From the NCBI GenBank assembly GCA_029167225.1, contig JARFNK010000007.1, positions 1 through 64,000 on the forward strand: a stretch of DNA of 64,000 nucleotides. Reading direction: 5' to 3'. This document shows, piece by piece, positions 18,355-33,198 of this stretch. The number at the start of each line of letters is the position of its first letter. The first letter of the stretch is position 1. Under the pieces are notes generated by a model. That model had not been told where the DNA came from. It ran no database searches and saw nothing but the letters and a program-made list of their open reading frames with translations. The translations under genes and the position numbers were made by a program. The DNA comes from Sphingobium arseniciresistens (GTDB lineage Bacteria > Pseudomonadota > Alphaproteobacteria > Sphingomonadales > Sphingomonadaceae).

Positions 18355-18650
18355 ACCCTCGGCCTGCGCGACCGCCATCCTTCCGCATGCCGAATCCCGA
18401 CGTAAATCTCGTCGTGGCCGTGCCTGTCCGGGCGGCACCGTCCTTTATGCAAAGCGCCTGAAAGCCGGGCGGTTTTTCTCCCGCTTCGGTCGAACATGGA
18501 CGGGATGATCATTTCAGCAAGAAAAATCTTGAAACCTGTCCAGTTTTATGGCGGATTTGCATGAGCCATCCGTCCTGTAGGCAAAGGCGCGCCATGCGTC
18601 GGCTTGGGCTCGGTTTCGCGCACATCATCTGCGTTGAGGGGGAAGTCAGG
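18355..18650. other. Promoter region of the qhp operon
   Basis: Almost 300 bases between the sulfotransferase gene and qhpA. The part around 18500-18560 is AT-rich and contains the inverted repeat also found upstream of the cytochrome c gene and aauB. An open frame continues through the last 90 bases but the signal peptide argues for a qhpA start at 18651. Confidence 0.6.
18529..18542 (+). promoter_or_regulatory. Shared amine-regulon operator, copy 1 (qhpA promoter)
   Basis: TTGAA-ACCT-GTCCA, preceded by AATC and followed by GTTTTATGG. It lies 109 bases upstream of the qhpA start. The matching copies are at 27474-27487 and 29604-29617, in the same orientation relative to the downstream gene. 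No sigma-70 -35 hexamer is evident here, which would fit activation. Confidence 0.55.
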
Positions 18651-20384
18651 GTGAAGCAGGTTCCTGTTACACGGTTTGCGTTGCTGGCTCTCTTTTCCGC
18701 GTCGGTGGTGTTCGCGCAGGCGGATGACAAGCCAGGCGGCGCCGATGGCATGATGAAGGAAACCGAGGAGGGCATTCCCGTCTCGGACAATCAGGTTGTC
18801 GAGAAATGCGGCACCTGCCATGCGCCTGATGCAAAGGGCAATCTGTCGCGCATCTCGTGGATCCGCACCACGCCGGAGGGCTGGGCGCAGGCGATCAAGC
18901 GCATGGTGCGGCTGAACGGCCTGCAGATAACGCCGGAGGAATCCCGTGCGGTCGTCAAGTCTCTGTCGGCATCGCATGGCCTGGCGCCCGAAGAGGCGCG
19001 GGCGGTGATGTATATCCCTGAAAAGCGGATCATCGACGAGACCAGCATCCCCAATGATGCGGTGCGCGGTGCCTGTGCCTCCTGCCATGCCTTTGGCCAG
19101 CCTTTGTCATGGCGCCGTTCCAAGCTGGAATGGAAGCAGCTGCAGGACATGCACGTCGCCCTCTATTCGCAGGCCGACGCCCAGTATCGCCGGCCGGTGG
19201 AGGAAGGCGGCGGGCCGGGGACACCGGATGCGCCGAAGAAGACGCGCGGCGAGGTCGGGCTGGAATATATGCAGAAGACCGCGCTGCTGCACACGCCCGA
19301 ATGGGCGGCGTGGAGTTCCCGCCTGCGCGCGCCGCGCCTGGCCGGGCAATGGCTGGTCATGGCGTCGGTGCCGGGGCAGGGGCGTTTCGTCGGCGAGATG
19401 ACGGTCGCGCCGGGCGCGGCGAAGGACGAGTTCCGCACCAGCGTTTCGCTGCGTTCGATCAGCACCGGCGCGACCCTCAATCGCACCGGCACGGCGCTGG
19501 TCTATGCCGGCTATTCCTGGCGCGGCACGTCGAAGGGGGCGGCGAGCCCGGCGCGACCCGACGATCTCGCCAGCACCGCGCGCGAAGCCATGTGGTTCTC
19601 GCCCGACCAGCAGGGTGCGGAGGGGCGCTGGTTCTGGGGCGATTATCAGGAATTCGGCTTCGACGTGAAACTGACGCGGGCGACGGCAGCGCCGACGATC
19701 CTCGCAGTCACGCCCGGCATGGTGAAGGCGGGCGCGAAGGCGGTCGAGGTCAGGATCCTGGGCAACAACCTGCCGGCTTCGCTGGCGGCGGCGGATATCG
19801 ATCTGGGCGCGGGCGTGGAGGTGAAGAAGGTCGTCTCCGCGAGCCCCGGGGAAGCCGTGCTGAGCGTGGACGTCGCGGCGAACGCGCCATCGGGCCAGCG
19901 CGATGTCGGCATCGCGGGCGCCGTGCTGGAAAAGGCGTTCCCGGTCTTCCACAAGGTCGATTATCTCAAGGTCACGCCCGAAACCGCCATGGCGCGGCTT
20001 GGCGGCACGAAATTCCCCAAGGGCTTCCAGCAGTTCGAGGCGATCGGCTTTGAAAACGGTCTGGACGGCAAGCCGGGCACTGCGGACGACATCGCCATCG
20101 GTCCGGTCGACGTGAACTGGACCGTCCAGGAATTCCTGTCGGTCTATGATGACGACGACAAGAAATATGTCGGCACGCTGAGCCCGACGGCCCTGTTCAC
20201 GCCGGGCCTTGAAGGCCCCAATCCCGAACGCCGCTTCGGCCGCAACAATTATGGCGAGGTGTGGGTGGTCGCCACCGCGAAGTCCGAAAAGGACAAGTTC
20301 GGCAAGCCGCTCAGCGCCCGCTCCTATCTGGTCGTCGCCGTCCCAACCTATCAACGCTGGGATCAGCCGGAGGTCTCCAAATGA
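18651..20384 (+). CDS. qhpA: Quinohemoprotein amine dehydrogenase alpha subunit (di-haem)
   Basis: A 577-residue precursor with signal peptide VKQVPVTRFALLALFSASVVFAQA. Two CXXCH haem motifs, VEKCGTCHAPDAKG and GACASCHAFGQ, lie in the N-terminal domain, followed by a lipocalin-like/Ig-like beta region (QWLVMASVPGQGRF; VTPGMVKAGAKAVEVRILGNNLP), the arrangement of the alpha subunit of QHNDH from Pseudomonas and Paracoccus. It carries electrons from the cysteine tryptophylquinone in the gamma subunit to an external cytochrome. I chose GTG 18651 because GAGGGGGAAG precedes it and the signal peptide starts there. The stop overlaps qhpD by 4 bases. Confidence 0.92.
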   Translation: MKQVPVTRFALLALFSASVVFAQADDKPGGADGMMKETEEGIPVSDNQVVEKCGTCHAPDAKGNLSRISWIRTTPEGWAQAIKRMVRLNGLQITPEESRAVVKSLSASHGLAPEEARAVMYIPEKRIIDETSIPNDAVRGACASCHAFGQPLSWRRSKLEWKQLQDMHVALYSQADAQYRRPVEEGGGPGTPDAPKKTRGEVGLEYMQKTALLHTPEWAAWSSRLRAPRLAGQWLVMASVPGQGRFVGEMTVAPGAAKDEFRTSVSLRSISTGATLNRTGTALVYAGYSWRGTSKGAASPARPDDLASTAREAMWFSPDQQGAEGRWFWGDYQEFGFDVKLTRATAAPTILAVTPGMVKAGAKAVEVRILGNNLPASLAAADIDLGAGVEVKKVVSASPGEAVLSVDVAANAPSGQRDVGIAGAVLEKAFPVFHKVDYLKVTPETAMARLGGTKFPKGFQQFEAIGFENGLDGKPGTADDIAIGPVDVNWTVQEFLSVYDDDDKKYVGTLSPTALFTPGLEGPNPERRFGRNNYGEVWVVATAKSEKDKFGKPLSARSYLVVAVPTYQRWDQPEVSK

Positions 20385-21832
20385 CCGTGATGCATGCACC
20401 CACATATCGGCAGGGGGAATATCATCCCTTCCAGGCCGCGGATCGCGACTTCATCTACCTGGTCAGTGCCGGCGCGGTGTTCGAGATCGACGATGCTGTC
20501 GGCGCTGTGCTGAAACGGCTGGAGGGACAGGAGCTGACCCACGCCGCGCTCGTCAAGGCACTGGTCGAGCAGGGGCGCGATCACGCTGATGCGGAGGAAT
20601 TGGTGCGCGAACTGCGCAACGCCCAGCTGATCCAGCTCGGCCATGCGCTGCCGGTTTCCGTACCCGAAGCGCCGCCCGCCGATTTCCCGCTGCAGGCACT
20701 GGTGCTCAACATCACCAACCAGTGCAACCTTGCCTGCACCTATTGCTATGAATTCGGCGCGGACAAGATCGCCACGCCGGCGGGCAAGCCCAAATATATG
20801 ACGCTGGAGACCGCGCGTGCCTCGGTCGACCTGCTGCTCGCCGAAGCGGTCGGCCGCAAGGCGGTGCATATCACCTTCTTCGGCGGCGAGACGCTGATGA
20901 ACTTCAAGCTGCTGCGCGACGTGGTGGGTTATGCCAATGGCGCGTCGGCGGCGCAGGGCAAGGCGATCACCTACAGCCTCACCACCAATGCGACGCTGCT
21001 GACGCCGGAGATCGTGACCTTCCTCTCGGACAACCGGATCGGTGTGACGGTCAGCATGGACGGGCCGCCGGAACTGCAGGACAAGCACCGCGTCTACAAG
21101 AACGGCAAGGGCAGCTATGCCGTGATCGAGCCCCGGTTGCGGACGCTGATCGCCAACCACAAGACTCGCGCCGTCACCGCCCGCGTCACGCTGACCGAGG
21201 GCGTGACCGACGTGATCCGCATCTTCCGCCACCTGAAGGATGATTTGGGCTTCCACGAAGTCGGCTTCGCGCCGGTGACGACGGCCGAAAAGCGCGATTA
21301 TTCCATCGACGACAGCGGCATGGACAGCGTGCTGGACCAGTTCCACCAGCTCGCCGATGAATGGCTGGAATTTGCGCTGCGTGGCGAGGTGCACGGCTTC
21401 ACCAATGTCAGCGAGACGATCAGCGAGTTGATCTCCGGCGTCAACAAGTCGCATCCCTGCGGCGCGGCGCTCGGGCTGATGGGGGTTAGCCCCTCGGGCG
21501 ATCTGTCGCCCTGCCACCGCTTCACCGATGCAGACACCCACAGCATGGGTCATGTGTCGAGCGGCATCGACCGCGAGAAGCAGAGCGACTTCCTTGCGCG
21601 CGGGCATGTCGGCGCGAAATATGACTGCCAGAGCTGCTGGGCGCGGCCGCTCTGCGCTGGCGGCTGCCATCATGAGGCCTTTGTCCGCTATGGCGACACC
21701 GGCCATGCCAACCTGCATTATTGCGACTGGATCCGGCAGTGGACGGACACCTGCCTGCGCATCTACGGCGTGCTGGCCGCGCAAAATCCCGCATTTCTGG
21801 AACGCTTTGCTGAGCGAAAGGGGCTGTCATGA
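20381..21832 (+). CDS. qhpD: Radical SAM peptide thioether synthase QhpD
   Basis: A 483-residue radical SAM/SPASM enzyme. An N-terminal peptide-binding (RRE-like) region of about 100 residues precedes the SAM cluster motif CNLACTYC (Cys115, 119, 122), followed by FFGGETLMNF. The C-terminal part has the auxiliary cluster cysteines: HPCGAALGLMG, LSPCHRF, YDCQSCWARPLCAGGCHHEAF and a later C. QhpD forms the three Cys-to-Asp/Glu thioether links in the gamma subunit before export. Start ATG 20381 overlaps the qhpA stop (ATGA), and its own stop overlaps qhpC by 4 bases, indicating tight translational coupling. Confidence 0.93.
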   Translation: MTVMHAPTYRQGEYHPFQAADRDFIYLVSAGAVFEIDDAVGAVLKRLEGQELTHAALVKALVEQGRDHADAEELVRELRNAQLIQLGHALPVSVPEAPPADFPLQALVLNITNQCNLACTYCYEFGADKIATPAGKPKYMTLETARASVDLLLAEAVGRKAVHITFFGGETLMNFKLLRDVVGYANGASAAQGKAITYSLTTNATLLTPEIVTFLSDNRIGVTVSMDGPPELQDKHRVYKNGKGSYAVIEPRLRTLIANHKTRAVTARVTLTEGVTDVIRIFRHLKDDLGFHEVGFAPVTTAEKRDYSIDDSGMDSVLDQFHQLADEWLEFALRGEVHGFTNVSETISELISGVNKSHPCGAALGLMGVSPSGDLSPCHRFTDADTHSMGHVSSGIDREKQSDFLARGHVGAKYDCQSCWARPLCAGGCHHEAFVRYGDTGHANLHYCDWIRQWTDTCLRIYGVLAAQNPAFLERFAERKGLS

Positions 21833-22188
21833 AGCATCTTCGGCCGATCAACAAAAAGGCGCAGCGCATCGACGACCTCGTCTCGGCGATGGAGCAGGAC
21901 GCGGCGGAACCGGGCATGGAAGCGGAGGATGTGGTTGCGCTCCAGCAGCAGCCGCGCCCGCATGTGCCGATGGGTTGCACCCTGTCCTTCTCGCCGGGCT
22001 GGGAAGTCGATGCGGGCGGCGGCACGGCGGGCCTGTGCCAGCCGGTCGAGCGCGACATCTATGACTGCTACGTCACCTGTTTCTGGCCGGTGCAGGTGCC
22101 CGATCACGTCAACTATTCACCCGACTGGGCCAGCAACTGCGCGACCGCGACGAAGGACTGGCGCAACCTCGATCTGGTCTTCCCATGA
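21829..22188 (+). CDS. qhpC: Quinohemoprotein amine dehydrogenase gamma subunit (CTQ precursor)
   Basis: A 119-residue precursor of the catalytic subunit. Aligning to the known mature numbering (Cys7-Glu16, Cys27-Asp33, Cys41-Asp49, and CTQ Cys37-Trp43), every partner falls at the exact spacing: Cys50-Glu59, Cys70-Asp76, Cys84-Asp92 and Cys80-Trp86. The mature part would begin near residue 44, so the leader that QhpE removes is about 43 residues (polar, helical, no signal peptide). A further cysteine, Cys104 in WASNCATAT, has no partner in that scheme. The mature protein is exported by QhpF after cross-linking, with Trp86 oxidised with help from QhpG. Confidence 0.96.
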   Translation: MKHLRPINKKAQRIDDLVSAMEQDAAEPGMEAEDVVALQQQPRPHVPMGCTLSFSPGWEVDAGGGTAGLCQPVERDIYDCYVTCFWPVQVPDHVNYSPDWASNCATATKDWRNLDLVFP

Positions 22189-22243: not shown

Positions 22244-23335
22244 ATGAAGACGCTGTGCCTCACGCTCGCCGCCGGCCTTGCCATGCTCGGCAGCGCCGTT
22301 TCCTCCCAGGCGGCGACGCTGTTCATGGGCTCCTATCCCGATACGCTGCTGGTGTTCGACGAGGCGAAGGGCGCGGTGACGGACCGCATCAAGCTGGACA
22401 CCGGGCTGCCCACCAGCATGCAGCTGTCGGATGATGCCAAGCGCATCTACGTCACCACGATCACGACCAGCGGGGTCGAGGTGATCGACGTCGCCACGCA
22501 CAAGGTCATCAATAAGTTCAGCCTGAACGACGGCCCCCGGCGCTATCGCTTCTATGGTGGCGCTCCTGACCCCACGGGCCGCTTTTTCTACACGGTCATC
22601 ACCCAGATCGACAAGGAGATCGACCGCTACAAGGTGAGCAAGCCGCTCTATGCGGTCATCGACCTCAAACTGCAGAAGGTCGTGAAGACGGCGGAGATCG
22701 ACAAGGAAGACGAGAAGTCGGGCGGCTTCCGCGCGGGCTACAAGGTGTCGGGCGATGGCAAGTTCCTCTATGTCTTCGGTGAAAAGGTGGTCATCGTCGA
22801 CACCGCGACGCTCAAGGCGATCGACCATATCGACCTTGCCAAGCCGGAAGGGACGGGGTTGGAGAATGTCGGCTTCGGCGGCACGCTGGATAATATCCGC
22901 ACGCCGGGCCAATATGTCTCGCTGTTCAACGCGTCCGACCCCTATATCCACAACAAGATGTTCGGGGTTGCCCGCTTCGACCTCAACACCCGCCAGTTCG
23001 ATTTCACCCCGGTCGGCCCGGCGCCGGCCGCGATGGCGGGCCTGCAGATGTCGCCCGACGGCAAGGAGGCCTATACCGTCGTCACCAACGGCACGCTCGG
23101 CAACAAGCGCTGCGAATTCTGGCGCTTCGACATGACGACGAACGCGGTGCTCGACAAGGCGGAGTTCCAGTGCCGCTCGCGCTTCCGCTTCGGCCTGTCG
23201 AACGATGGCGCCAAGTTCTACATCTATGGTGCCAGCTACGATATCGAGGTTTATGACGCCAAGACGCTGAAATATGAAAGCACCTGGGATCTGGGATACG
23301 ACACCACCGGCGCGGGCATGGTCGCGGTGCAGTGA
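22244..23335 (+). CDS. qhpB: Quinohemoprotein amine dehydrogenase beta subunit
   Basis: A 363-residue secreted seven-bladed beta-propeller. Signal peptide MKTLCLTLAAGLAMLGSAVSSQA; propeller repeats such as TLLVFDEAKGAVTDRIKL, GVEVIDVATHKVINKF, KVVIVDTATLKAIDHI and YDIEVYDAKTLKYESTW show the YVTN-like blade pattern. In QHNDH this subunit surrounds the gamma subunit and shapes the substrate channel. It follows qhpC by 55 bases and completes the A-D-C-B order seen in known clusters. The frame is open upstream but the signal peptide fixes the start. Confidence 0.93.
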   Translation: MKTLCLTLAAGLAMLGSAVSSQAATLFMGSYPDTLLVFDEAKGAVTDRIKLDTGLPTSMQLSDDAKRIYVTTITTSGVEVIDVATHKVINKFSLNDGPRRYRFYGGAPDPTGRFFYTVITQIDKEIDRYKVSKPLYAVIDLKLQKVVKTAEIDKEDEKSGGFRAGYKVSGDGKFLYVFGEKVVIVDTATLKAIDHIDLAKPEGTGLENVGFGGTLDNIRTPGQYVSLFNASDPYIHNKMFGVARFDLNTRQFDFTPVGPAPAAMAGLQMSPDGKEAYTVVTNGTLGNKRCEFWRFDMTTNAVLDKAEFQCRSRFRFGLSNDGAKFYIYGASYDIEVYDAKTLKYESTWDLGYDTTGAGMVAVQ

Positions 23336-23366: not shown

Positions 23367-24410
23367 ATGATCGTCGGCATAAGGGGCAGCGGCATTGCCG
23401 CGACCGGATGCGCGCATCTGTTGCGAGGGGCGGGCCTTCGGGTCGCACACGCGCCCGCTCCTCGCGCTACCGTGCCGACCGTGATGCTGAGCGACGCGGC
23501 GTTGTCCCTGCTGCGCGGCGTGTTCGATCGGCCCGGCCTGTTCGCCGGCCGCCCGCGCATCAAGCGCCGCGTGATCGCCTGGAGCAGCGCCGTGCCGGTC
23601 GTGGTCCCGCATGAGGCGGTTCTGCTGTCCGAAGCGGAGGTCCAGGCGGAACTGGCGGGATCGGGACCGTCGGTGCCGGAAGATCGGGTCGTGTCGGAGC
23701 AAGGGGATGACGGCATCGGGCAGACCGATTTCACCATCTTCGCCGCGCCGCCGATGCCCGAAGGCGGGATGCGGATCTTTGGCGAGCGCCATGCCGTCGC
23801 AGCCAGGGTCCGCCTGCGCGATCAGGCCTGCGCGGAGGAATGCCGGATCGAGGCGGTCGATGCCGGCTGGCTGTTCCTGGTGCCAGCCTCCCCCGACGAG
23901 GGCCGGTTGCGTGGCTGGCTGATGGGAGTGGGCGGCGCGCTCGACGATCTGCTCGCCGACAGCCGCCTGATCGCGCCGCTGGTCGAACCACTGGGCACCT
24001 CGTCCATTCCATTCCTGGCCGCGCCGCGCCTCGCCATGCCATTGATCGGCACCGACTGGCTGGCCTGTGGCAGCGCGGCGCTGGGCTTCGATCCGATCTG
24101 CGGCGATGGCACGGCGCAGTCGGTGCGCGAGGCGATCCTGGCCGCGGCGGTGCTGACGGAGATGGCGGACGGCGGTGATCCGCAGGCACTGCAGACCCAT
24201 TATCGATCCATGCTGATCGCGGCCATGCGCCGGCACCTGTCGCTCTGCGCGAACTTCTATCGCAATGGAGGGCGCAGCGACTGGTGGCGCGGGCAGTTCG
24301 ATGCGCTGATGCAGGGCTATGGCTGGTGTACGCAGCTGCTAGCCGACATGCCCGAGCCGCGCTTCATGCTGCAGGATTTCCGCCTCGTGCCCCGGCAGGA
24401 CGCGGCGTGA
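23367..24410 (+). CDS. qhpG: QhpG-like flavin-dependent monooxygenase for CTQ biogenesis
   Basis: A 347-residue flavoprotein. The N-terminus MIVGIRGSGIAATGCAHLLRGAGLRV is a variant FAD-binding GxGxxG fold, and a second FAD contact, LACGSAALGFDPICGDGTAQSV, lies near residue 235. The family inserts oxygen into the future quinone tryptophan of the cross-linked gamma subunit. In the clusters described for Paracoccus the order is B-E-F-G; here G comes first. Spacing from qhpB is 31 bases, and the stop overlaps the next start. Confidence 0.88.
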   Translation: MIVGIRGSGIAATGCAHLLRGAGLRVAHAPAPRATVPTVMLSDAALSLLRGVFDRPGLFAGRPRIKRRVIAWSSAVPVVVPHEAVLLSEAEVQAELAGSGPSVPEDRVVSEQGDDGIGQTDFTIFAAPPMPEGGMRIFGERHAVAARVRLRDQACAEECRIEAVDAGWLFLVPASPDEGRLRGWLMGVGGALDDLLADSRLIAPLVEPLGTSSIPFLAAPRLAMPLIGTDWLACGSAALGFDPICGDGTAQSVREAILAAAVLTEMADGGDPQALQTHYRSMLIAAMRRHLSLCANFYRNGGRSDWWRGQFDALMQGYGWCTQLLADMPEPRFMLQDFRLVPRQDAA

Positions 24411-26128
24411 GCGATCCGCGCCCCACCATGCCGCCCGGTGCGCCCGTGGCCGACTGGGGCAGCTATCGCCGGCTTGGCCCCTATCTCCGTCCCTATTGGC
24501 GGCCGCTGCTGCTGGTGCTGGCGATCAGTCTGCTCTCGACCGCGCTGGGGCTGGCGCAGCCCTATCTGTCCAAGCTGATGATCGACCAGGCGCTGCTGCG
24601 GCGGGACATGGATGCGCTCATCCGCATCGCGGCGATCATGATCGCGGTCACGCTGGCAGGCTTCGGCGTCAACATCCTTGCCAGCTACCGCTATGTCGCG
24701 CTCTCCGCCGCGATGCTCTACGATATTCGCGCGGCGCTGCTGCGCCACCTGCAATCGCTCTCGCCACGCTTCTATGGCAGCTTCCGGCTGGGCGACCTGA
24801 TTTCCCGGATGAACAGCGATGTGAGCGACGTGCAGCGGATCGCATCCGACACGCTGCTTTCGGTGGTCAGCAACCTCCTGTTCTTCGTCGGCTGCGTGGC
24901 GATGATGCTGTGGCTGGACTGGCGGCTGTTCCTGGTCAGCGTCGTGCTGGTTCCTGCAAGCCTGCTGACCTTTGCCTATTACCAGCGCCGCCTGACCGCG
25001 CTGACGCGGGACATGCGGGAGAAGGGCGCGGACCTTGGCAGCCTGCTCGTCGATACCGTCATGGGCATGCGGGTCGTCGCCTCGCTGCGCGCGGGCGAGC
25101 ATGAGGTGCAGCGTTTTCGTGCCCGCAACGACGCCTTTGTCGGGTCGATGCTGAAGATGCAGGTGGCGTCCTTCATGACCGGGGCGTTGCCCGGCACGCT
25201 GATGACGGCAGCGACATCCGCGGTGATCCTCTATGGCGGCGCGATGATCATCGACGGGCGGATGAGCATTGGCACGCTGGTCGCCTTCATGACCTATCAT
25301 ATGCGACTGCTCTCGCCCATCCAGACGCTGATGGGGCTGACATCGGGGCTGGCCTCCGCTCGTGTCTCGCTCGGTCGGATCTTCGAGCTGTTCGATACGC
25401 CAGCGGACGTCGTCGAGCGGCCCGGCGCGCTGCCGCTTGCAAAGGTGACGGGAGCGATCCGCTTCGATCATGTGTCGATGCGCTATGATCGTGACGCGGT
25501 GCTGAGCGATGTCGACGTGGAGATCGCGCCGGGCAGCCTCTGCGCGATCCTTGGCCCCAGCGGCGTCGGCAAGTCGACCATGGCGGACCTGCTGGTGCGC
25601 TATCTCGATCCCGATGCGGGCGTCATCCGCATTGATGGCCAGGATATTCGCGACTATCGGCTCGACGACCTGCGGCGCGAGATCATCCTCGTCGATCAGG
25701 CACCCTATCTGTTCAACGATACGATCGCGGCGAACATCGCCTTCGCCATGCCGCAGGTGGACCAGGCGGCGATCGCGGCGGCCGCCCATGCGGCGGGGCT
25801 CGACGCATTCATTGCCTGCCTGCCGGAAGGCTACGCCACGCGCACCGGCGAGCGCGGCCTGGCGCTGTCGGCCGGCGAACGGCAGCGGGTCGTACTCGCC
25901 CGCGCGCTGCTGCGCCGCCCGAGCGTCCTCATCCTCGACGAGCCGACATCGGCGCTCGACGGCGAGACCGAGCAGCGGATCGCCCATCGGCTGCGCGGCG
26001 CACTGCCTGATGCTACGATCGTTGTCATCACCCACAAGCCGGCGCTCGCCCGGATGGCCGATGCGATCATCACGCTGGAGGACGGACGCGCCCTGATGAC
26101 GCGGCACGAGGCGCCCGTTGATGCCTGA
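24407..26128 (+). CDS. qhpF: ABC exporter QhpF
   Basis: A 573-residue half-transporter with six membrane helices (LLLVLAISLLSTALGLA, LLFFVGCVAMMLWLDW and others in residues 20-310) fused to an ATPase: Walker A GPSGVGKST near residue 383, signature ALSAGERQRVVLA, Walker B VLILDEPTSALDG. QhpF moves the cross-linked gamma subunit across the inner membrane, since QhpC has no Sec or Tat signal. GTG 24407 overlaps the qhpG stop (GTGA); ATG 24428 is an alternative start. Confidence 0.88.
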   Translation: MSDPRPTMPPGAPVADWGSYRRLGPYLRPYWRPLLLVLAISLLSTALGLAQPYLSKLMIDQALLRRDMDALIRIAAIMIAVTLAGFGVNILASYRYVALSAAMLYDIRAALLRHLQSLSPRFYGSFRLGDLISRMNSDVSDVQRIASDTLLSVVSNLLFFVGCVAMMLWLDWRLFLVSVVLVPASLLTFAYYQRRLTALTRDMREKGADLGSLLVDTVMGMRVVASLRAGEHEVQRFRARNDAFVGSMLKMQVASFMTGALPGTLMTAATSAVILYGGAMIIDGRMSIGTLVAFMTYHMRLLSPIQTLMGLTSGLASARVSLGRIFELFDTPADVVERPGALPLAKVTGAIRFDHVSMRYDRDAVLSDVDVEIAPGSLCAILGPSGVGKSTMADLLVRYLDPDAGVIRIDGQDIRDYRLDDLRREIILVDQAPYLFNDTIAANIAFAMPQVDQAAIAAAAHAAGLDAFIACLPEGYATRTGERGLALSAGERQRVVLARALLRRPSVLILDEPTSALDGETEQRIAHRLRGALPDATIVVITHKPALARMADAIITLEDGRALMTRHEAPVDA

Positions 26129-26864
26129 GCTCTTCGCGGGCCTGAGCGGGCAGGGTATCCGCATCGCCGTGGTCGACAGTGGCGTGCATTCCGATCATCC
26201 GCACATCGCCGCCGGGCAGCTTCTTGAAGGCGTGGCGATCTCGTCGCAGGGTGCGGTTGCGGGCGACGATGCCGATGCCACGCTCGACCGTCTCGGCCAT
26301 GGCACCGCCGTTATCGCTGCGATACAGGAAAAGGCACCCGCAGCCCTCTGCCTGCCCATCAGGGTCTTTCATGAGAAATTACAGACGACGGCTACGGCGC
26401 TGGTCGCCGCGATCGACTGGTGCATCGCGGCGCGGGTGGATGTCATCAATCTCAGCCTCGGGACGGTCAACGAGGCCCATCGACCGGCCTTCGAAGGGGT
26501 AGCCGAACGCGCGCTGGATGCCGGGATTCTGCTGGTCGCCGCCCGCGCGGCGAATGACAGGCTCTGCTTTCCCGGCAGCCTGCCGCAGGCGATCAGCGTC
26601 GGCCTCGACTGGGATTGCCCGCGCGAGGCATATCGCATGCAGGCGGAGGGGGAGGAAAGGGTCTTCCTTGCCTCTGGCCACCCCCGCCCGATCCCTGGCG
26701 TGCCGCAGCGCCGCAACCTCTACGGGATCAGCTTCGCCGTCGCCAACATGACCGGCTTCGCCGCGCGCGCGTGCGAGCAACTCGGGCGATCGGCAGAGGG
26801 GCGCGAGCGCGTATCGGCTGCGGGCGCCCTGCTGGAACAGCGCATGTCGGTTGCCGCCGTTTAG
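26121..26864 (+). CDS. qhpE: Subtilisin-like leader protease QhpE
   Basis: A 247-residue subtilase without signal peptide, so cytoplasmic. Catalytic triad candidates: Asp19 (IAVVDSGV), His60 (GHGTAV) and Ser204 (LYGISFAVANMTGF, where the family usually has GTS); the oxyanion Asn is probably Asn145 (ARAANDR). QhpE cleaves the leader from the gamma subunit after QhpD cross-linking. The start overlaps the qhpF stop by 8 bases. It is the last gene of the operon, with the cytochrome c gene converging only 7 bases away. Confidence 0.9.
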   Translation: MPELFAGLSGQGIRIAVVDSGVHSDHPHIAAGQLLEGVAISSQGAVAGDDADATLDRLGHGTAVIAAIQEKAPAALCLPIRVFHEKLQTTATALVAAIDWCIAARVDVINLSLGTVNEAHRPAFEGVAERALDAGILLVAARAANDRLCFPGSLPQAISVGLDWDCPREAYRMQAEGEERVFLASGHPRPIPGVPQRRNLYGISFAVANMTGFAARACEQLGRSAEGRERVSAAGALLEQRMSVAAV

Positions 26865-26871
26865 GCGCGCG

Positions 26872-27351
26872 CTATGAGGGAATAAGGCCCTTGGCGGCAA
26901 GGCGCCCACGCTCCGCCGCGACTTCGGCCGATGTCTTCCGGCCTTCCGCGCGGATCTTGGCGATTTCCGCGGCGGAGAAGGCAGGCACGGGCTTTCCGGG
27001 CTTTTGCAGGGCGACTGCGTGGTTCAGCACATCGGCAATATCCTGATCCTTGAGCGTTCCCATGCCGGGCATCAGGCCGGTGATCGGTTTCCCGTCGACC
27101 TTGATCGGTCCATAGATGCCGTAGAGCAGCACGGAGGCGAGATAATGCCGCCCGTCGGGCGAAGCGGCGATCTGTGACACCCGTCCGCTGAGCCGGGGGA
27201 ATTGCCCTGGCAGCCCAGCGCCGGAAGGCTGGTGACACATGGAGCAACGGCTGCTGAATGTCTGGAGCCCGGTTGCCGATGCGGGGCTCATAAGCGCCGC
27301 CATCATCATGGCCGACAATGCTATTCCAAATTCCCGGAAACCCTGTGTCAT
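26872..27351 (-). CDS. Periplasmic mono-haem cytochrome c, probable electron acceptor of the amine dehydrogenase
   Basis: A 159-residue protein with signal peptide (FREFGIALSAMMMAALMSPASA), a single haem motif CSMCH at residues 36-40, and a probable distal Met in LMPGMGTLKDQDIADVLNH. After the cytochrome domain there is a charged C-terminal helix (FSAAEIAKIRAEGRK). Convergent with qhpE and preceded by the same operator as qhpA and aauB (27474-27487), which argues that it serves the amine dehydrogenases. ATG 27351 chosen so that the signal peptide is N-terminal; the frame extends 19 codons further upstream. Confidence 0.85.
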   Translation of the reverse strand: MTQGFREFGIALSAMMMAALMSPASATGLQTFSSRCSMCHQPSGAGLPGQFPRLSGRVSQIAASPDGRHYLASVLLYGIYGPIKVDGKPITGLMPGMGTLKDQDIADVLNHAVALQKPGKPVPAFSAAEIAKIRAEGRKTSAEVAAERGRLAAKGLIPS

Positions 27352-27473
27352 GATGTGGCGCGTCCCCTTTGAAACCCTGCGATTGAGCAACGACGTCGGC
27401 CAGCACATGGGGCGGTCGACGGCATCCCGCGACCGCCCGATGAACGGGCTGCGTTGCTGGAATGCATAAATAT

Positions 27474-27487
27474 TGGACAGTCTTCAA
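27474..27487 (-). promoter_or_regulatory. Shared amine-regulon operator, copy 2 (cytochrome c / tetR intergenic)
   Basis: On the minus strand: TTGAA-GACT-GTCCA. A -35 like TTGACG (27498-27493) and a -10 like AATATT (27474-27469) flank it with an 18-base spacer in the direction of the cytochrome c gene. Over 37 bases around this site, 29 are identical to the aauB copy read in the corresponding orientation. It is 123 bases from the cytochrome start and 93 from the tetR start, so either gene could be controlled. Confidence 0.6.
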
Positions 27488-27579: not shown

Positions 27580-28233
27580 ATGATCATCGCTCCACCCCGT
27601 CCCGGCATCTACGCCCGTGGCACTGAAACTGTCGATTCCATCCTGAAGGCGGCGCTCGCAGTGCTGATCGAAGAGGGCTCCGATGCCTTCACGATCCGCC
27701 GGATCGCCGCGCGATGCGGGATGAAGGTCGGGAATGTCAGCTATCATTTTCCCCGCAAGGAAATGCTGATCCAGGTGCTGCTGGACGAGCTGGTCGAATC
27801 CTATGACAAGGTACTCGAAGAGGTTGTCCGCAAGCCGGGCCTGACCGCCGAGGAGCGGCTGAAGCTGGTCATCATCATGTGCCTGGATGATATCCAGTCC
27901 AAGCGCACGACGCGGCTGTTCACGGAATTATGGGCGCTCGCCAACCATAATGACTTCGTGGCCGAGCGGGTCCATGCCTTCTACCAGAAAGCGCATGGCA
28001 TCATCGGCGAATATGTCGCCGTGCTCAATCCCGCGCTGTCGGCCGACGAGGTTCTTACGGTGGCGCTCTTCATCAGCGCGTCGATGGAAGGATCGACGCC
28101 GTTCCTGGGTTACGAGAAGCCCTGGGCCCACAAGATGCCCGCCTTCACGACACTTGCGGTGAAGTCGCTGGTCAATCTTGCCAAAACGGCAACTTCGCGC
28201 GACATTGCCGGATTGGCAATGGCGACGGCGTAA
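27580..28233 (+). CDS. TetR-family transcriptional regulator
   Basis: A 217-residue protein with an N-terminal TetR helix-turn-helix (TIRRIAARCGMKVGNVSYHFPRKEMLIQVLLDEL, residues about 35-68) and a helical ligand-binding C-terminus. It stands between the two amine dehydrogenase operons and divergent to the cytochrome c gene. Described QHNDH clusters use an AraC-type regulator (QhpR); none is in this window, so this TetR protein is the best local candidate for controlling the shared operator or the downstream transporter. That assignment is inference. Confidence 0.88.
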   Translation: MIIAPPRPGIYARGTETVDSILKAALAVLIEEGSDAFTIRRIAARCGMKVGNVSYHFPRKEMLIQVLLDELVESYDKVLEEVVRKPGLTAEERLKLVIIMCLDDIQSKRTTRLFTELWALANHNDFVAERVHAFYQKAHGIIGEYVAVLNPALSADEVLTVALFISASMEGSTPFLGYEKPWAHKMPAFTTLAVKSLVNLAKTATSRDIAGLAMATA

Positions 28234-28307
28234 CGCTGCGCCCTCTGTGGGGGATGTTCTGAACGGCCCGTGCGCCATCGGCGTATCGTCATGCTGTGGG
28301 GAACGTC

Positions 28308-29525
28308 ATGGGGGCTGGCCGGAACTTTCACGCTTCGTACATCGCGATGATTCTTCTCGCGGCGCTCGCCCTGCTGCAGCCGGGCATCGATCCGGTCTTT
28401 CTCACGCTGCTGTCGTCCGCCAACGGCGTCGACCCGGTTGATCATGGTTGGATCGTCGGTGCCGCGCAGATCGGCATGGCGTTGGGATCGCTCTGTGTCT
28501 GGCTGGCGGGATCGCGACTGCCGCGTCATGCGCTGACCCTCGCCGCCGTCAGCGCGCTGGCCGCCAGCCTCGTGACGGCGAGGCTTGGGGGGCTAGGCGC
28601 GCTTGTCCTGGTGCGCGGTGGCTTCGGGCTCGCCATGGGCATGATCTATACCCATGCGGTGAGCAGCGCTGCGGCGCGGCGTCCATCAGGGGCCTATGGT
28701 GCGGTCTTCCTGGTTCAGCTGCTCCTGTCGACGGCGGCGGCGCTGTTGCTGCCCCTCGTTGCGGCTGCGTCCGGCCCGGCGCTGGCGCTGTGCGCGCTCG
28801 CGGTCGTGCCGCTGGCGGCGACGGGGATGACCCTGTTGCCTGGCAATGCGGCTGTCGATCGCGCTGCTGAGTCTTATGGACGTGACCTGTCGGACCGGCC
28901 CGTCGCCTCTGTAACCACGCCGCCCGCCACGCCCCCGGCCGCTTGGGCGTTGGCGATCGCGACCTTCTGTTTCGTGGCGACCAGCATGATGGTGTGGAGC
29001 TTCGCCGGCGCCATGGCGACACATGCCGGCATTGATGAAGGCAGCATCGGCTGGGCGGTGGCGGTCGGCTCCGTCGCCGGCGCCATCACCGCGCTGGCGG
29101 TGATGCGCGAGGAGACCCTGGTGCCGTTGCCGGTGACGGGCATATTATGCGGCCTGTGCCTGCTCTCACCCGTGCTGCTGACACCGGGCGGAGACGAAAA
29201 CCTGTTCACGCTGTCGGTCATCCTGCTCAACATCGGATCGACGGCCATCATCATTCGCTGTTCTGGCCTTGCCTCCGCCGCCAGCGATGATCCGCTGTTC
29301 CGAAGGTTCGTTGCCTGCACGCATGGTCTGGGCGGTATTGCCGGGCCGCTGATCGGTTCGCTTGTTTCCCTTGCCATGGGCATGGAGCATCTGGGTGGCG
29401 GCGCGATGGTCATGATGGCGGGCGGCTGCCTTGCGCTTTTCTATGCGGCGGCGAAGGACAGGGAGGGCGCGCTGCTCCCAGCCATGCGCGAAGAGCCGGA
29501 GCGGAGAAGCGAGGTTGCGGCCTGA
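28308..29525 (+). CDS. MFS transporter
   Basis: A 405-residue membrane protein with about twelve hydrophobic segments (AMILLAALALLQPGIDPVF; IVGAAQIGMALGSLCVWLAG; VLVRGGFGLAMGMIYTHAV; AVFLVQLLLSTAAALLLPLV and more after a central loop near residue 200), typical of the major facilitator superfamily. The ATG at 28308 has GGGGAA eight bases upstream; GTG 28296 is an alternative. It follows tetR in the same direction and precedes the aauB promoter. It may import or export amines or their products, but nothing in the sequence shows the substrate. Confidence 0.78.
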   Translation: MGAGRNFHASYIAMILLAALALLQPGIDPVFLTLLSSANGVDPVDHGWIVGAAQIGMALGSLCVWLAGSRLPRHALTLAAVSALAASLVTARLGGLGALVLVRGGFGLAMGMIYTHAVSSAAARRPSGAYGAVFLVQLLLSTAAALLLPLVAAASGPALALCALAVVPLAATGMTLLPGNAAVDRAAESYGRDLSDRPVASVTTPPATPPAAWALAIATFCFVATSMMVWSFAGAMATHAGIDEGSIGWAVAVGSVAGAITALAVMREETLVPLPVTGILCGLCLLSPVLLTPGGDENLFTLSVILLNIGSTAIIIRCSGLASAASDDPLFRRFVACTHGLGGIAGPLIGSLVSLAMGMEHLGGGAMVMMAGGCLALFYAAAKDREGALLPAMREEPERRSEVAA

Positions 29526-29603: not shown

Positions 29604-29617
29604 TGGACGTGTGTCCA
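29604..29617 (+). promoter_or_regulatory. Shared amine-regulon operator, copy 3 (aauB promoter)
   Basis: TGGAC-GTGT-GTCCA, a perfect 5-bp dyad and the best of the three copies. It sits in the 18-base spacer between TTGACC (29593-29598) and AATCTT (29617-29622), 82 bases before the aauB start. A factor bound here would either block or reshape this promoter. Confidence 0.6.
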
Positions 29618-29699: not shown

Positions 29700-30872
29700 A
29701 TGACGAGGGCCGTCGCCAAGGGCATTTTCGCAGCAACCGGGCTCGCATGGGCACTCATCGCGACGGCATCTGCCGGGCACGCCGCACCGGCCGCCGTGCT
29801 GGAGCCGGAAACATCCGATACGATGACGATCGATCCGCCCAAGACGACATGGTTCTATGTTGATGGCGGATGGGATTCTCCCGGTACGAACATCTTCGAC
29901 GCGGAAAGCGGCAAGATGAAGGGCATGGTCGAAACCCGCAGGCTGGCCGACTTCGCCATCGATCCGGCGGGCAAATATTATTATGTGTCGGAAACCATCT
30001 GGTCGAAGGGGGATAGGGGCACACGGCAGGATATGGTCTCCGTCTACGACACGACAGAGATGAAGCTGCTGACGGAAGTGGCCATTCCCGGCCGTATCCT
30101 CATCGGCGCCCGCAAGAATAATTTCATCATCAGCGACGATGGCAAGACCGGCTATGTCTATAATCTCAGCCCGGCCTCGTCGGTCAATGTCGTGGATCTG
30201 GCGAAGCGCAAGTTCGTGAAGACGATCGAACTGCCCGGCTGCGCGAGTATGATGCCCAATCCGGGCGTGGGCTTTTCCGCGCTTTGCTCCGATGGTTCGC
30301 TCGCCACCGTTGCGATCAGCGGCGCAAAGGCGGAGATCACGCACAGCGCGCCCTTCTTCTCCGCCACGGACGATCCGATTTTCGACAATTTCGCCTATGA
30401 CAAGCGAAAGAAGGAAACGACGTTCCTGAGCTATACCGGCCTGATCTACACGGCCACGCTCGGCCCGTCGCCTACGCTGTCGCAGCCTTTCTCTATCCAG
30501 GCGGCCGCGGGCATCCGCCCCGGCGAAACCAAGCCGCTCGATCTCAACTGGTATCCTGGCGGCCGACAGCCAATGGCGCTGCACCGGCCTTCCGGTCATC
30601 TCTTCGTGCTGATGCACATGGGCGAATATTGGTCGCACAAGGCATCGGGATCGGAAGTGTGGGAGGTTGACCTGGCGACCAAAAAGGTCGTCAAGCGGCA
30701 TCCGCTCGAGGAAGAGATGAACAATATCGAGGTGTCGCAGGACGCCAAGCCGATGCTCTACATGAATGGCGAAAAGGGCACCGCCATCGTCGTCGATGTC
30801 GCCAGCTGGGAAGAAAAGCACAAGATCGAGCATGCCGGCGGTGGCATCATCACGGTCGTGGACCCCAACTGA
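29700..30872 (+). CDS. aauB: Aromatic/methylamine dehydrogenase large subunit
   Basis: A 390-residue secreted beta-propeller with signal peptide ending SAGHAAPAAV. Family segments of the amine dehydrogenase heavy chain are clear: TTWFYVDGGWDSPGTNIFD, FAIDPAGKYYYVSETIWSKGDRGTRQD, ARKNNFIISDDGKTGYVYNLSPASSV, RQPMALHRPSGHLFVLMHMGEYWSHKASGSEVWE, and NNIEVSQDAKPMLYMNGEKG. It packs against the TTQ small subunit and forms the substrate channel. RBS AAGGGGGA. First gene of the aauB-mauE-mauD-aauA operon. I favour aromatic amine over methylamine dehydrogenase because of the small subunit residues. Confidence 0.92.
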   Translation: MTRAVAKGIFAATGLAWALIATASAGHAAPAAVLEPETSDTMTIDPPKTTWFYVDGGWDSPGTNIFDAESGKMKGMVETRRLADFAIDPAGKYYYVSETIWSKGDRGTRQDMVSVYDTTEMKLLTEVAIPGRILIGARKNNFIISDDGKTGYVYNLSPASSVNVVDLAKRKFVKTIELPGCASMMPNPGVGFSALCSDGSLATVAISGAKAEITHSAPFFSATDDPIFDNFAYDKRKKETTFLSYTGLIYTATLGPSPTLSQPFSIQAAAGIRPGETKPLDLNWYPGGRQPMALHRPSGHLFVLMHMGEYWSHKASGSEVWEVDLATKKVVKRHPLEEEMNNIEVSQDAKPMLYMNGEKGTAIVVDVASWEEKHKIEHAGGGIITVVDPN

Positions 30873-30874
30873 CG

Positions 30875-31426
30875 ATGGTGCACTCGCTCGGCCTTGCTGT
30901 CGTCGCGCTTTCGGGCGCGACCGGCGTTGGCCTTGTTTTCCTGACCGCCGGGCTTTCGAAATTCCGGCATAGCGCGCTGTTGCCGGGTGTGGTCGCCAAT
31001 TACCGCCTGCTGCCGCCGTCACTGGTGGCGCCGGTGGCCGCCATTTTGCCCATCGCCGAAATCCTGATCGGCGCCGCCCTGATCCTGGGGATCGGCCCGC
31101 TGTCGCTGGCGCTGCCTGCTGTGCTGGCGATGCTGCTCCTCGGCCTGTTCGCGGCCGCTATGGCGATCAATATCGGGCGTGGCCGCACGCAGATCGATTG
31201 CGGGTGCGGACGGTCCCAGCTTCGCCATCCCATCGGTTGGGGGCTGGTCGCGCGCAACATGGTGCTGATGGGCTTGCTCGCGCCGCGGCTGCTGCCGGCG
31301 CCTGTCCTGTCGCCCATCGATCTCGCCGCCGGGATCGCCGGTGGCCTCGCCATTTTCCTGGCCTACGTCCTGTTCAATTCCATCGGGGCGCTGATCGCGT
31401 CGCCGGCGGCCGCACTCCGGAGATAA
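30875..31426 (+). CDS. mauE: MauE-like membrane protein for amine dehydrogenase maturation
   Basis: A 183-residue integral membrane protein of the MauE/DoxX-like family with about five helices (LGLAVVALSGATGVGLVFLTAGLSKF; LIGAALILGIGPLSLALPAVLAMLLLGLFAA; LSPIDLAAGIAGGLAIFLAYVLF). The loop motif IDCGCGRSQ is the conserved cysteine pair that is thought to relay disulfides. MauE and MauD are both needed for stable production of the disulfide-rich small subunit in methylotrophs. It starts 2 bases after the aauB stop. Confidence 0.9.
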   Translation: MVHSLGLAVVALSGATGVGLVFLTAGLSKFRHSALLPGVVANYRLLPPSLVAPVAAILPIAEILIGAALILGIGPLSLALPAVLAMLLLGLFAAAMAINIGRGRTQIDCGCGRSQLRHPIGWGLVARNMVLMGLLAPRLLPAPVLSPIDLAAGIAGGLAIFLAYVLFNSIGALIASPAAALRR

Positions 31427-31432
31427 GCGCTT

Positions 31433-32035
31433 ATGCTGACATCGTTGATCGTCTCCCAAATCATTTCCTGGATCATGATCCTGGGCCTCGGCGTGGCGCT
31501 GCTGGCGGTCGCGCGGCAAGTGGGCGTGCTTCACATCCGCGTGGCACCCGCCGGCGCGCTGACCACGGCTGGCGGAATCGGCGTGGGCGAGGGCATCGCG
31601 CCGATCGAGGCGCACACGCTGGATGGCAAGGCTGTGTCGATCGGCGGCCCGGCGGCGGGCGTTCCGCTGCGGCTGCTGATGTTCGTCTCGGCCCAGTGCC
31701 CGCTGTGCAAGATGGTCATTCCGATGGCCAAGTCCTTCGCGCGGGACGAGCGTGTCGCGCTGACCTTCGTCGGCGACGATGACGTCGGCGCCCAGCGCGC
31801 GATGATCGCGCAGCACGGGCTGGACGGCTATGCGTTCGTCAACGGTCCCGAGGTCGGCCAGGCGCTGGCGGTCAGCAAGCTGCCCTTTGCCGTGCTGCTG
31901 GATGCCGAGGGCGTGATCCTCTCCAAGGGGCTGGTGAACAGCCGCGAGCATCTCGAAAGCCTGGTCGTCGCTCATGAAATGGGCATCCGGTCGGTGCAGG
32001 ACTATATTTCGACATTGAAGGCCGAGGCGGCCTGA
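31433..32035 (+). CDS. mauD: MauD-like thioredoxin-fold protein
   Basis: A 200-residue membrane-anchored thioredoxin-like protein: one N-terminal helix (SQIISWIMILGLGVALLAV), then the periplasmic domain with the redox motif SAQCPLCKM (Cys89 and Cys92) and the cis-proline region SKLPFAVLLDAEG. It most likely introduces or shuffles the disulfides of AauA together with MauE. Position between mauE and aauA is the standard order of methylamine and aromatic amine dehydrogenase clusters. Confidence 0.92.
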   Translation: MLTSLIVSQIISWIMILGLGVALLAVARQVGVLHIRVAPAGALTTAGGIGVGEGIAPIEAHTLDGKAVSIGGPAAGVPLRLLMFVSAQCPLCKMVIPMAKSFARDERVALTFVGDDDVGAQRAMIAQHGLDGYAFVNGPEVGQALAVSKLPFAVLLDAEGVILSKGLVNSREHLESLVVAHEMGIRSVQDYISTLKAEAA

Positions 32036-32058
32036 GCCATCGGCAAGAGGGGGCAGAC

Positions 32059-32604
32059 ATGAAGAGATTTGACGCCGACGCCATGGGCGAGAGGCTGCTG
32101 CGAAGGCTGGCCGGCGGGACATCCCGGCGCAGCATGATATCGCGGCTGGGCGCCGTGCTGGTGGCCGCACCCGCATTCCCGCTGCTGCCCGTTAGCCGCG
32201 CGGAGGCGGCAAAGCCGGACCGCTCGCCGGAAGCGAAGACCAGCTTCGCCCGCAATGCGCAGACGAAGGACGACACCAAGTGCACCTATTGGCGTTATTG
32301 CGCCATCGACGGCGCGCTGTGCACCTGTTGCGGCGGCGGCATCCACAGCTGCCCGGCGGGCGCCGAGCCCTCGCCGGTGTCCTGGGTCGGCACCTGCATC
32401 AACCCGGACGACGGCAAGGCCTATCTGATCGCCTATCGCGACTGCTGCGGCAAGCCGGCCTGCGGCCAGTGCAATTGCGATAATACCGACCGCGAGACGC
32501 AGCTCTACATGCCGCAGCTCAACAATGACGTGATCTGGTGCTTCGGGACGAGCAGCATGGAATATCATTGCTCGACCGCGGTGCTCGTCGGCGCGGCAAG
32601 CTGA
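32059..32604 (+). CDS. aauA: Aromatic amine dehydrogenase small subunit (TTQ precursor)
   Basis: A 181-residue precursor with a long twin-arginine-like leader (TSRRSMISRLGAVLVAAPAF). The mature part is very cysteine-rich (14 Cys) and has the family block CTYWRYCAIDGALCTCCGGG. Trp109 (SWVGTC) and Trp160 (VIWCFG) are at the same precursor numbers as the TTQ-forming tryptophans of Alcaligenes faecalis aromatic amine dehydrogenase, and Asp84 and Asp128, the residues for TTQ formation and proton abstraction there, are also present at those numbers. RBS AGAGGGGG. The substrate is likely an aromatic or phenylalkyl amine (inference). Confidence 0.94.
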   Translation: MKRFDADAMGERLLRRLAGGTSRRSMISRLGAVLVAAPAFPLLPVSRAEAAKPDRSPEAKTSFARNAQTKDDTKCTYWRYCAIDGALCTCCGGGIHSCPAGAEPSPVSWVGTCINPDDGKAYLIAYRDCCGKPACGQCNCDNTDRETQLYMPQLNNDVIWCFGTSSMEYHCSTAVLVGAAS

Positions 32605-32673
32605 AAGGACAGCGCCGCGAGCGATGATTGGCTTGCGGCGCGGATGGGGAAGCGTGACAACGGGGCCATGGCC

Positions 32674-33198
32674 ATGAGCCGATATCTTCTGGGCATGGCG
32701 TTCGCTCTTGCCACCCTGTCGGTCTATCATTCCGGGGCATTGAGGGCCGCTTCCGCGGCGCCGCGCCCATTGCCGGCGGCCATTTCCGACCCGGACCTGG
32801 CGCGATCGGATTATGTCGAGAATTGCGGTGGCTGCCATGGGGTGCAGGGCCTTTCGGCGCCCGCCGAGCTGCCCGAGCTGCGCGACCGTGTCGGCTATTT
32901 CATGTGTACGCCGGAAAGTCGCGCCTATCTCATCCGCCTACCCAATGTGGCGCACAGCCGGATCACGGACAATCAGCAGCTTGCCGACATGGTGAACTTC
33001 GTCGTCTTCGGGCTGGGCGGCGCGAGCGTGCCGGCCGGGGCCAGCCCCTTCACGGCGGACGAGGTGACGCGGGAGCGCAAGTTCGCGCTGTCGTCCGCCT
33101 CCCTGACTGCCGAGCGCGCCAGGCATGTGGAATCGGCGATCAGGAAGTGCCACGCGCCAGCCTCCCTCCGGCAGTTCTATCCCGGCCGGAAGCACTGA
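32674..33198 (+). CDS. Cytochrome c following the aau genes
   Basis: About 174 residues from ATG 32674 (earlier in-frame starts at 32668 and 32644). Signal peptide YLLGMAFALATLSVYHSGALRAASA, then a single haem motif CGGCH (residues 51-55). Downstream cysteines in YFMCTPES and IRKCHAPAS are not haem motifs. A small cytochrome c gene also follows aauA in other clusters as I recall. It is the natural electron acceptor of the TTQ enzyme, and, in the absence of a MauG homologue, also the only haem protein here that could take part in TTQ maturation. Confidence 0.82.
   Translation: MSRYLLGMAFALATLSVYHSGALRAASAAPRPLPAAISDPDLARSDYVENCGGCHGVQGLSAPAELPELRDRVGYFMCTPESRAYLIRLPNVAHSRITDNQQLADMVNFVVFGLGGASVPAGASPFTADEVTRERKFALSSASLTAERARHVESAIRKCHAPASLRQFYPGRKH

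Follow-up and report, generated by a model that had tools for sequence, protein, structure and literature searches.

The window analysed here (the whole stretch of 64,000 nucleotides from Sphingobium arseniciresistens, contig JARFNK010000007.1, positions 1 to 64,000, in a source genome of 6.6 Mb) carries two gene sets for amine dehydrogenases with unlike quinone cofactors, each predicted to be self-made. One is a qhp cluster for a quinohemoprotein amine dehydrogenase (QHNDH) with cysteine tryptophylquinone (CTQ), and the other is a five-gene operon for an amine dehydrogenase with tryptophan tryptophylquinone (TTQ). The pairing is real and recurrent in other genomes, those of certain soil and water bacteria, and an operator-like palindrome lies in front of both operons. 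Because this site is common to both, a single amine-oxidation regulon of sphingomonads is the best explanation of the locus, and we regard it as likely. Comparison at the sequence level establishes the gene content, the cofactor residues, the recurrent pairing and the shared sites. The component parts are of known kinds; the novelty lies in their combination, in the separate lineage of the TTQ enzyme and in the lack of MauG. A literature search on both enzymes together, on each of them in sphingomonads and on TTQ formation, which included excerpts of PMC7876137, PMC8292978 and PMC7699789 and had most subscription journals outside its scope, found no description of a paired locus; a preliminary description of the window had likewise known of none.

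Gene organization of the paired locus

The preliminary description had placed both operons at 18515..33198, and gene calls together with family profiles find all of their genes there, at 18.6-33.2 kb. The features of the locus are as follows, with positions in the window.

18529..18542, plus strand: operator-like palindrome 5′ of qhpA, 2 mismatches to TGGACNNNNGTCCA
18651..20384, plus strand: qhpA, QHNDH alpha subunit (TIGR03908, 588 bits, curated cut-off 274; two CxxCH haem motifs in the translation)
20381..21832, plus strand: qhpD, radical SAM thioether synthase (TIGR03906, 653 bits, curated cut-off 453)
21829..22188, plus strand: qhpC, gamma subunit with the CTQ precursor (NF037958, 139.5 bits, curated cut-off 50; PF08992; alignment to 1jmx_G)
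22244..23335, plus strand: qhpB, beta-propeller subunit (TIGR03907, 70 bits, under the curated cut-off of 223; operon position)
23367..24410, plus strand: qhpG, short divergent flavin Trp dihydroxylase (NF049967, 45.9 bits, under the curated cut-off of 240; fold match 7ctq)
24428..26128, plus strand: qhpF, ABC exporter (PF00664, PF00005)
26121..26864, plus strand: qhpE, subtilisin-like leader protease (NF049966, 193 bits, curated cut-off 165)
26872..27408, minus strand: cytc1, monohaem cytochrome c between both operons (PF00034)
27474..27487, plus strand: operator-like palindrome between cytc1 and tetR, 2 mismatches
27580..28233, plus strand: tetR, TetR/BetI-type regulator (PF00440, PF13977)
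28296..29525, plus strand: transporter like those of the major facilitator superfamily (MFS; PF07690 weak, under cut-off)
29604..29617, plus strand: operator-like palindrome 5′ of the TTQ heavy-chain gene, perfect
29700..30872, plus strand: TTQ amine dehydrogenase heavy chain, aauB/mauB-like (PF06433, 160 bits)
30875..31426, plus strand: mauE (PF07291)
31433..32035, plus strand: mauD (TIGR02661, 160.7 bits, cut-off 188.6)
32059..32604, plus strand: TTQ light chain, aauA/mauA-like (PF02975, 183 bits; TIGR02659, 193.1 bits, cut-off 196.85; Trp109/Trp160)
32644..33198, plus strand: cytc2, monohaem cytochrome c; two additional cysteines, Cys88 and Cys169, are invariant

The genes between the two operons are indeed a monohaem cytochrome c gene followed by TetR and MFS-like genes, as first described. 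The start of the heavy-chain gene is better placed at 29700, since the longer open reading frame from 29589 crosses the operator-like site. The relatives closest at this locus, in a light-chain scan of named genomes, are Sphingobium species.

The CTQ-type cluster

The cluster has the order qhpADCBGFE, and gene calls and family profiles account for all seven qhp genes. The earlier claim of a complete operon thus stands for the gene set and for QhpA, QhpD, QhpC and QhpE, which exceed their curated cut-offs, and is weaker for QhpB and QhpG, which fall under theirs; QhpB has the expected operon position. QhpG is 347 aa long, compared with 432 in the solved chain. Its AlphaFold model, built from 15 homologues, has a pLDDT of 87 and finds solved QhpG (7ctq) as the top fold match (E 6.7e-13), with other flavin monooxygenases near.

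The catalytic residues, which had been reported as intact, are intact in both enzymes. In QhpC, a hand count on the alignment with 1jmx_G revealed that all eight crosslink and CTQ residues are kept (Cys50-Glu59, Cys70-Asp76, Cys84-Asp92 and Cys80-Trp86 in precursor numbering), and the pattern is found in 41/41 compared rows, which represent 38 distinct genes, with three other-lineage genes present twice. The crosslink pairs other than Cys37/Trp43 and Cys41-Asp49 of the known enzyme are presumably known sites as well. Those two pairs are described in the part of PMC7876137 that was available, as is the location of Trp42 of QhpC in the QhpG pocket. Trp42 is kept in QhpC of other lineages (11/11 rows, 8 distinct genes), and Phe replaces it in sphingomonad QhpC, including that of the window (30/30 rows). 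Because Trp42 occupies the QhpG pocket, Phe42 of QhpC and the divergent QhpG look like a matched change of enzyme and substrate. The cluster resembles the qhp operon of Pseudomonas putida and Paracoccus denitrificans in having qhpA, B, C, D, E, F and G with intact CTQ and thioether residues, and differs from it in the TetR gene and shared palindrome, the short divergent QhpG and the Phe in place of Trp42. No qhpR was recognised among the locus genes, in a survey that included no dedicated search of locus or genome for it.

The TTQ operon and its lineage

The TTQ operon consists of the genes for the heavy chain, MauE, MauD, the light chain and a cytochrome c, in this order. Asp84, Trp109, Asp128 and Trp160 of the light chain are present and align with the equivalent residues of Alcaligenes faecalis and P. 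versutus. Both chains score under the curated cut-offs for methylamine dehydrogenase (MADH), the light chain narrowly (193.1 vs 196.85) and the heavy chain widely (163.8 bits vs 454.45). In trees on chosen rows (34 light chains; 26 heavy chains), the light chain of the window falls on the MADH side, parted from aromatic amine dehydrogenase (AADH) by a branch with support of 99/95 or 100/96, and the heavy chain forms a separate 100/100 lineage. A joint light-chain clade with AADH is 25 log units worse and is nearly but not rejected by the approximately unbiased (AU) test (p-AU 0.058). Membership of the light chain in AADH was rejected on the strength of this branch, and the name aromatic amine dehydrogenase given in the preliminary description is not supported. 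The light- and heavy-chain trees and the absent mau genes imply that neither the AADH nor the MADH name is earned. As the TTQ lineage lies outside AADH and MADH, the substrate may be new.

Compared with AADH of A. faecalis (aau), the operon has the same gene order from heavy chain to cytochrome c, no recognised mauG and the TTQ residues, and we take this gene order and the lack of mauG in Alcaligenes to be what defines aau. Both chains of the window belong to the separate lineage, and active-site neighbours differ: just ahead of the second TTQ Trp the light chain has Ile, like MADH, where AADH has Asn. With MADH (mau of Paracoccus and Methylobacterium) the light chain shares its side of the tree and the YRDCCG and IWCFG motifs. 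The annotated operons of Paracoccus and Methylobacterium contain mauF, mauJ, mauG, amicyanin and napGH, and in a visual comparison none of these was recognised in the window locus. A heavy-chain Phe governs substrate choice in AADH and MADH. Where AADH and two MADHs share this Phe, the window protein and 39/76 relatives carry Arg; the aligned position thus varies, and the gate residue was rejected as a predictor of substrate. A literature search on this Phe and substrate choice found nothing useful, and a search on aauA returned unrelated matches only. The two enzyme classes had been called unrelated, which is too strong, since both large subunits are beta-propellers and the QHNDH beta model matches the TTQ heavy chain at 8.9e-7.

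Other TTQ genes were also encountered. One family genome (G201) holds three TTQ operons of different lineages (L105, L106, L107), and in L107 the light-chain motif ahead of the second Trp is unusual. On plasmid pNL2 of Novosphingobium aromaticivorans (L118), a TTQ operon of another lineage lies between a ring-hydroxylating dioxygenase and catechol/beta-ketoadipate genes, a setting suggestive of a function in degrading aromatic amines. A TTQ light-chain paralogue at G357:C9:27294-27620 contains an in-frame TAG.

An operator-like palindrome shared by both operons

Among exact palindromes in promoters of the heavy-chain gene and of qhpA, forms of TGGAC-N4-GTCCA are the commonest, the exact form having been picked by eye from the output of the promoter-set search. 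Matches were counted with at most 2 mismatches within 260 bp upstream and compared with an expectation from shuffles, at loci with a gene match at least 45% identical and at least 50% covered and with 260 bp of upstream DNA; L112, which is the same place as L043, was left out. The palindrome lies 5′ of the TTQ heavy-chain gene at 74/75 loci (8.8 expected), of qhpA at 17/17 (2.4 expected), of cytc1 at 16/19 (2.5 expected), of tetR at 35/72 (7.8 expected) and of the [2Fe-2S] gene of a neighbouring aldehyde dehydrogenase at 13/35 (4.3 expected), and 5′ of the MFS gene at 0/20 (2.6 expected). It is also found at qhpA unlinked to a TTQ operon in 10/16 sphingomonad clusters (about 1.8 expected), a set made up of 15 of the 31 genomes that have the two gene sets on different contigs and of G288, which has no TTQ light chain. 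At qhpA of other lineages the palindrome is absent (0/4, with 3 or 4 mismatches), and among 12 TTQ operons of other lineages one (L106) matches at 2 mismatches, the others standing at 3 or 4.

The gene for the putative regulator accompanies the site. A tetR gene is present in 69/81 clustered loci, and the sole tested heavy-chain gene without the site (L065) has no tetR found within the 7.5 kb that precede it. No tetR was found in the flanks of L072, L074 and L081 either, divergent relatives beyond the identity and coverage limit with 2, 4 and 4 mismatches. The locus L113 keeps the site in a tetR-MFS-qhpA arrangement despite having no TTQ light chain. The likeliest reading of these patterns is that the adjacent TetR would bind the palindrome and control both operons.

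Several observations weigh against this reading. The motif was derived from the same heavy-chain and qhpA promoters in which it was then counted, so that only the other gene sets and the unlinked qhpA genes are independent tests. It is not enriched window-wide (14 matches vs 25 expected), and two of the three island sites are imperfect, with 2 mismatches each. Among the unlinked clusters, 6/16 qhpA promoters differ from the motif at 3 positions, and L127, among the ten that match, has it at an unusual place; five of those six promoters have a weaker palindrome with the core TGAC-N4-GTCA (TGAT-N4-GTCA in one) 125-136 bp upstream. Finally, L048 and L078 keep the site without a visible tetR, on contigs that begin at most 1.2 kb from the heavy-chain gene.

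Recurrence and arrangement of the pairing

A related-locus scan with the light chain over named genomes, of which the best 80 of 90 matches were kept, yielded mostly sphingomonads. The qhp genes other than the exporter gene flank 21/80 of these loci (flanks of at most 10 kb), most of them clipped by the flank end, and qhpA, D, C and B are all visible together in 9 of the 21 flanks. The genome search for co-occurrence that the preliminary description had proposed gave a positive result: qhpC is present in 52/78 genomes with this TTQ light chain (34/39 and 18/39 in two halves), and in 21/52 it lies on the same contig 4.2-20.7 kb from the light chain, that is, within 25 kb, compared with a chance expectation of about 1% for a 4.5 Mb genome. 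In an even draw of 298 genomes from the family, a TTQ light chain occurs in 31 and qhpC in 5, and the 3 genomes that carry both have them about 4-10 kb apart (Fisher p 0.009); qhpC is present in 2/267 genomes having no TTQ light chain. These two sets were drawn differently, the 78 genomes being chosen by likeness to the gene of the window. A draw of 398 genomes from the phylum gave 13 TTQ matches (12 over the cut-off) and 7 genomes with qhpC; besides the window genome, two have both, one on different contigs and one 350 kb apart.

Other counts speak against a fixed association. The two genes are on different contigs in 31/52 genomes, 26/78 light-chain genomes show no qhpC, 28/31 TTQ genomes of the family draw are without qhpC, and the Fisher p for co-presence becomes 0.052 without the window's own genome. 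Adjacency is therefore not required, given the 26/78 genomes without qhpC and the 31/52 with the genes on separate contigs.

Four arrangements of the linked genes are found: qhp upstream on the same strand (window, L010); qhp downstream on the same strand (L023, L025, L029, L030, L035, L047, L073, L114); qhp downstream and convergent (L003, L008, L009, L079); and qhp upstream and divergent (L037, L040, L042, L043, L044, L046, L049, L050, L056). The linked or unlinked label changes 10 times on a quick tree of 78 heavy chains, at least 7 of the changes being forced by starred branches, where the label "none" includes short contigs that hide linkage.

Two loci look decayed. At L113 (G164:C1:3245000-3262000) the order is tetR-MFS-qhpADCBGFE and no TTQ light chain was found anywhere in the genome; it looks as though a TTQ operon once lay between the MFS gene and qhpA and has since disappeared. 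L112 (G339:C8:60000-79900) keeps, at 17.0-19.9 kb, qhpG, qhpF, part of qhpB and an apparent start of qhpA (by eye) beside a complete TTQ operon; qhpD and qhpC were not found there, and its genome gave no qhpC match. This qhp cluster looks decayed through internal loss, with an assembly error as the alternative.

Formation of TTQ

No mauG was recognised in the window locus. The window genome has a single CCP_MauG protein, on another contig (L082, G000:C99:220465-220923), which is a diheme protein and MbnH-like, as it scores 229.8 bits to 6e1c vs 87.9 to MauG; we take 6e1c to be MbnH. A CCP_MauG match is absent in 49/78 genomes with this light chain, many of which are drafts or metagenome bins. 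From these gene inventories, TTQ formation here, if it occurs, is probably independent of a MauG-class enzyme, and the haem-dependent oxidation assumed earlier is not borne out in the MauG sense. If so, the two conserved monohaem cytochromes, or MauE and MauD, would have to replace the oxidation that MauG performs for MADH. The fuller proposal, in which a single TetR regulon would hold two unlike self-made quinone cofactors and TTQ would be made from a five-gene operon without a MauG-class enzyme, is offered tentatively, as we give it somewhat less than an even chance.

Two candidates for a substitute were rejected. As a diheme stand-in for MauG, cytc2 does not qualify, since it has a single CxxCH in 68/68 homologues; its Cys88 and Cys169 are invariant in 68/68 homologues and perhaps form a disulfide. 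That the qhp maturation genes generally serve the TTQ enzyme too was rejected, since 26/78 light-chain genomes show no qhpC (qhpG and qhpD were not searched there). A compact TTQ operon in genomes in which no MauG-class enzyme was found makes MauG-free TTQ formation open to direct test.

A predicted amine-oxidation regulon and its alternatives

In the proposed mechanism, the role of TetR as the binder, the inducer, the substrates, the electron path, the aldehyde step and the actual formation of both cofactors are predicted parts. Primary amines in the periplasm would be oxidised by two alternative dehydrogenases, the CTQ quinohemoprotein and the TTQ enzyme of an uncharacterised lineage. Ammonia would be set free, and a molybdenum aldehyde dehydrogenase would turn the aldehyde into the acid. 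The haems of the alpha subunit and the two monohaem cytochromes may carry the electrons away. TetR would occupy TGGAC-N4-GTCCA before tetR/cytc1, the TTQ heavy-chain gene and qhpA, and would let go of these sites in the presence of an amine or of the product formed from it. CTQ would be built by QhpD, QhpG and QhpE, with export by QhpF, and TTQ would be built with MauE and MauD, without a MauG-class enzyme. Since both operons carry this putative control site, they probably form one amine-oxidation system, and the earlier proposal of a specialised amine-oxidation island agrees with the recurrent pairing, the shared operator-like site and the frequent aldehyde dehydrogenase genes in the flank. 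As TTQ and CTQ are tied here to one predicted regulon, work on one host might reveal why both are maintained in a cell.

The two operons might instead be mere neighbours, that is, independent catabolic operons with separate control and substrates that drifted together. The many genomes with the genes on different contigs or without qhpC, and the varied arrangements, are what such drift would leave. Against it stand the repeated joining in four orientations, the linkage in 21/52 co-carriers where about 1% is expected by chance, and the operator-like site that is common even to unlinked qhp clusters, and we consider this account unlikely. It is quite unlikely that the TTQ operon is a canonical AADH operon, as the B-E-D-A order plus cytochrome without mauG, presumably that of Alcaligenes aau, would suggest. 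This identity has further points in its favor in the mature-core light chain, which scores 146.8 bits to AADH vs about 132 to most MADH chains, and in the AU test that falls short of rejecting a joint clade. Overall, however, the light chain matches 3c75_L best (179 bits), a full-length MADH chain that includes the presequence. The 100/96 branch, the separate heavy-chain lineage, the Ile before the second TTQ Trp and the change of the heavy-chain Phe to Arg argue against an AADH identity.

The least probable of the three alternatives, in our estimation, is that the locus serves amine sparing or detoxification rather than growth, with both enzymes of overlapping substrates removing one toxic amine under different conditions such as oxygen or copper. 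One site common to both operons would suit this function, and according to the available part of a review (PMC8292978), Novosphingobium KN65.2 has a mauBEDA operon and shows no growth on methylamine, where the operon may be of another TTQ lineage. Among the locus genes, none was recognised as coding for a regulator that responds to oxygen or metals, and the aldehyde dehydrogenase and TonB receptor neighbours suit nutrient use.

A predicted aldehyde step and neighbouring genes

Upstream of the qhp cluster lie the following genes.

13795..14256, plus strand: iorA (name used here), molybdenum aldehyde dehydrogenase subunit with [2Fe-2S] (Pfam Fer2/Fer2_2)
14190..16451, plus strand: iorB (name used here), molybdopterin subunit (MoCoBD domains; nearest solved relative 8gy3_C)
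16783..18354, plus strand: sulfotransferase with tetratricopeptide repeats (TPR; Pfam), between the aldehyde dehydrogenase and qhp genes, of doubtful membership

The best solved relative of the molybdenum subunit is 8gy3_C, an aldehyde dehydrogenase large subunit (248.6 bits; next 97.6), and the [2Fe-2S] subunit is adjacent. Compared with the membrane aldehyde dehydrogenase 8gy3, which we take to be an enzyme of an acetic acid bacterium, the pair of the window sits beside amine dehydrogenases, and no third, cytochrome subunit was identified. Neighbours were counted at 62 of the 80 loci, each at least 18 kb long ("full-length"). The aldehyde dehydrogenase pair flanks 27/62 of these loci, and XdhC and MobA-like genes, both for the molybdenum cofactor, and a TonB receptor gene are found at 25/62, 24/62 and 33/62, respectively. 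This gene set fits a predicted route from amine via aldehyde to acid. One or both of the aldehyde dehydrogenase genes adjoin 3/16 unlinked qhp clusters. Against the proposed regulon, these genes are about as frequent at TTQ loci without qhp (17/42) as at those with it (10/20). Homologues of cytc1 lie directly 3′ of the light-chain gene in several other TTQ operons. The TPR-sulfotransferase has relatives of 30-51% identity near other loci and is no conserved neighbour of qhpA.

On the 3′ side, the island is followed by tRNA-Val (33380-33455), a Cache-domain chemoreceptor gene (33742-35622) and a gene for an alginate-export-type outer membrane protein (35739-37346). The chemoreceptor could conceivably sense amines, and it is no conserved neighbour. 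An island at a tRNA integration site was rejected, since a search of the window for a repeat of the tRNA-Val tail, with up to 3 mismatches allowed, found none. A look for tandem repeats and a generic promoter and terminator scan gave nothing useful for the locus. Farther downstream, at 46096-55968, very long reading frames overlap on opposite strands, one of 2156 aa on the plus strand and one of 3267 aa on the minus strand.

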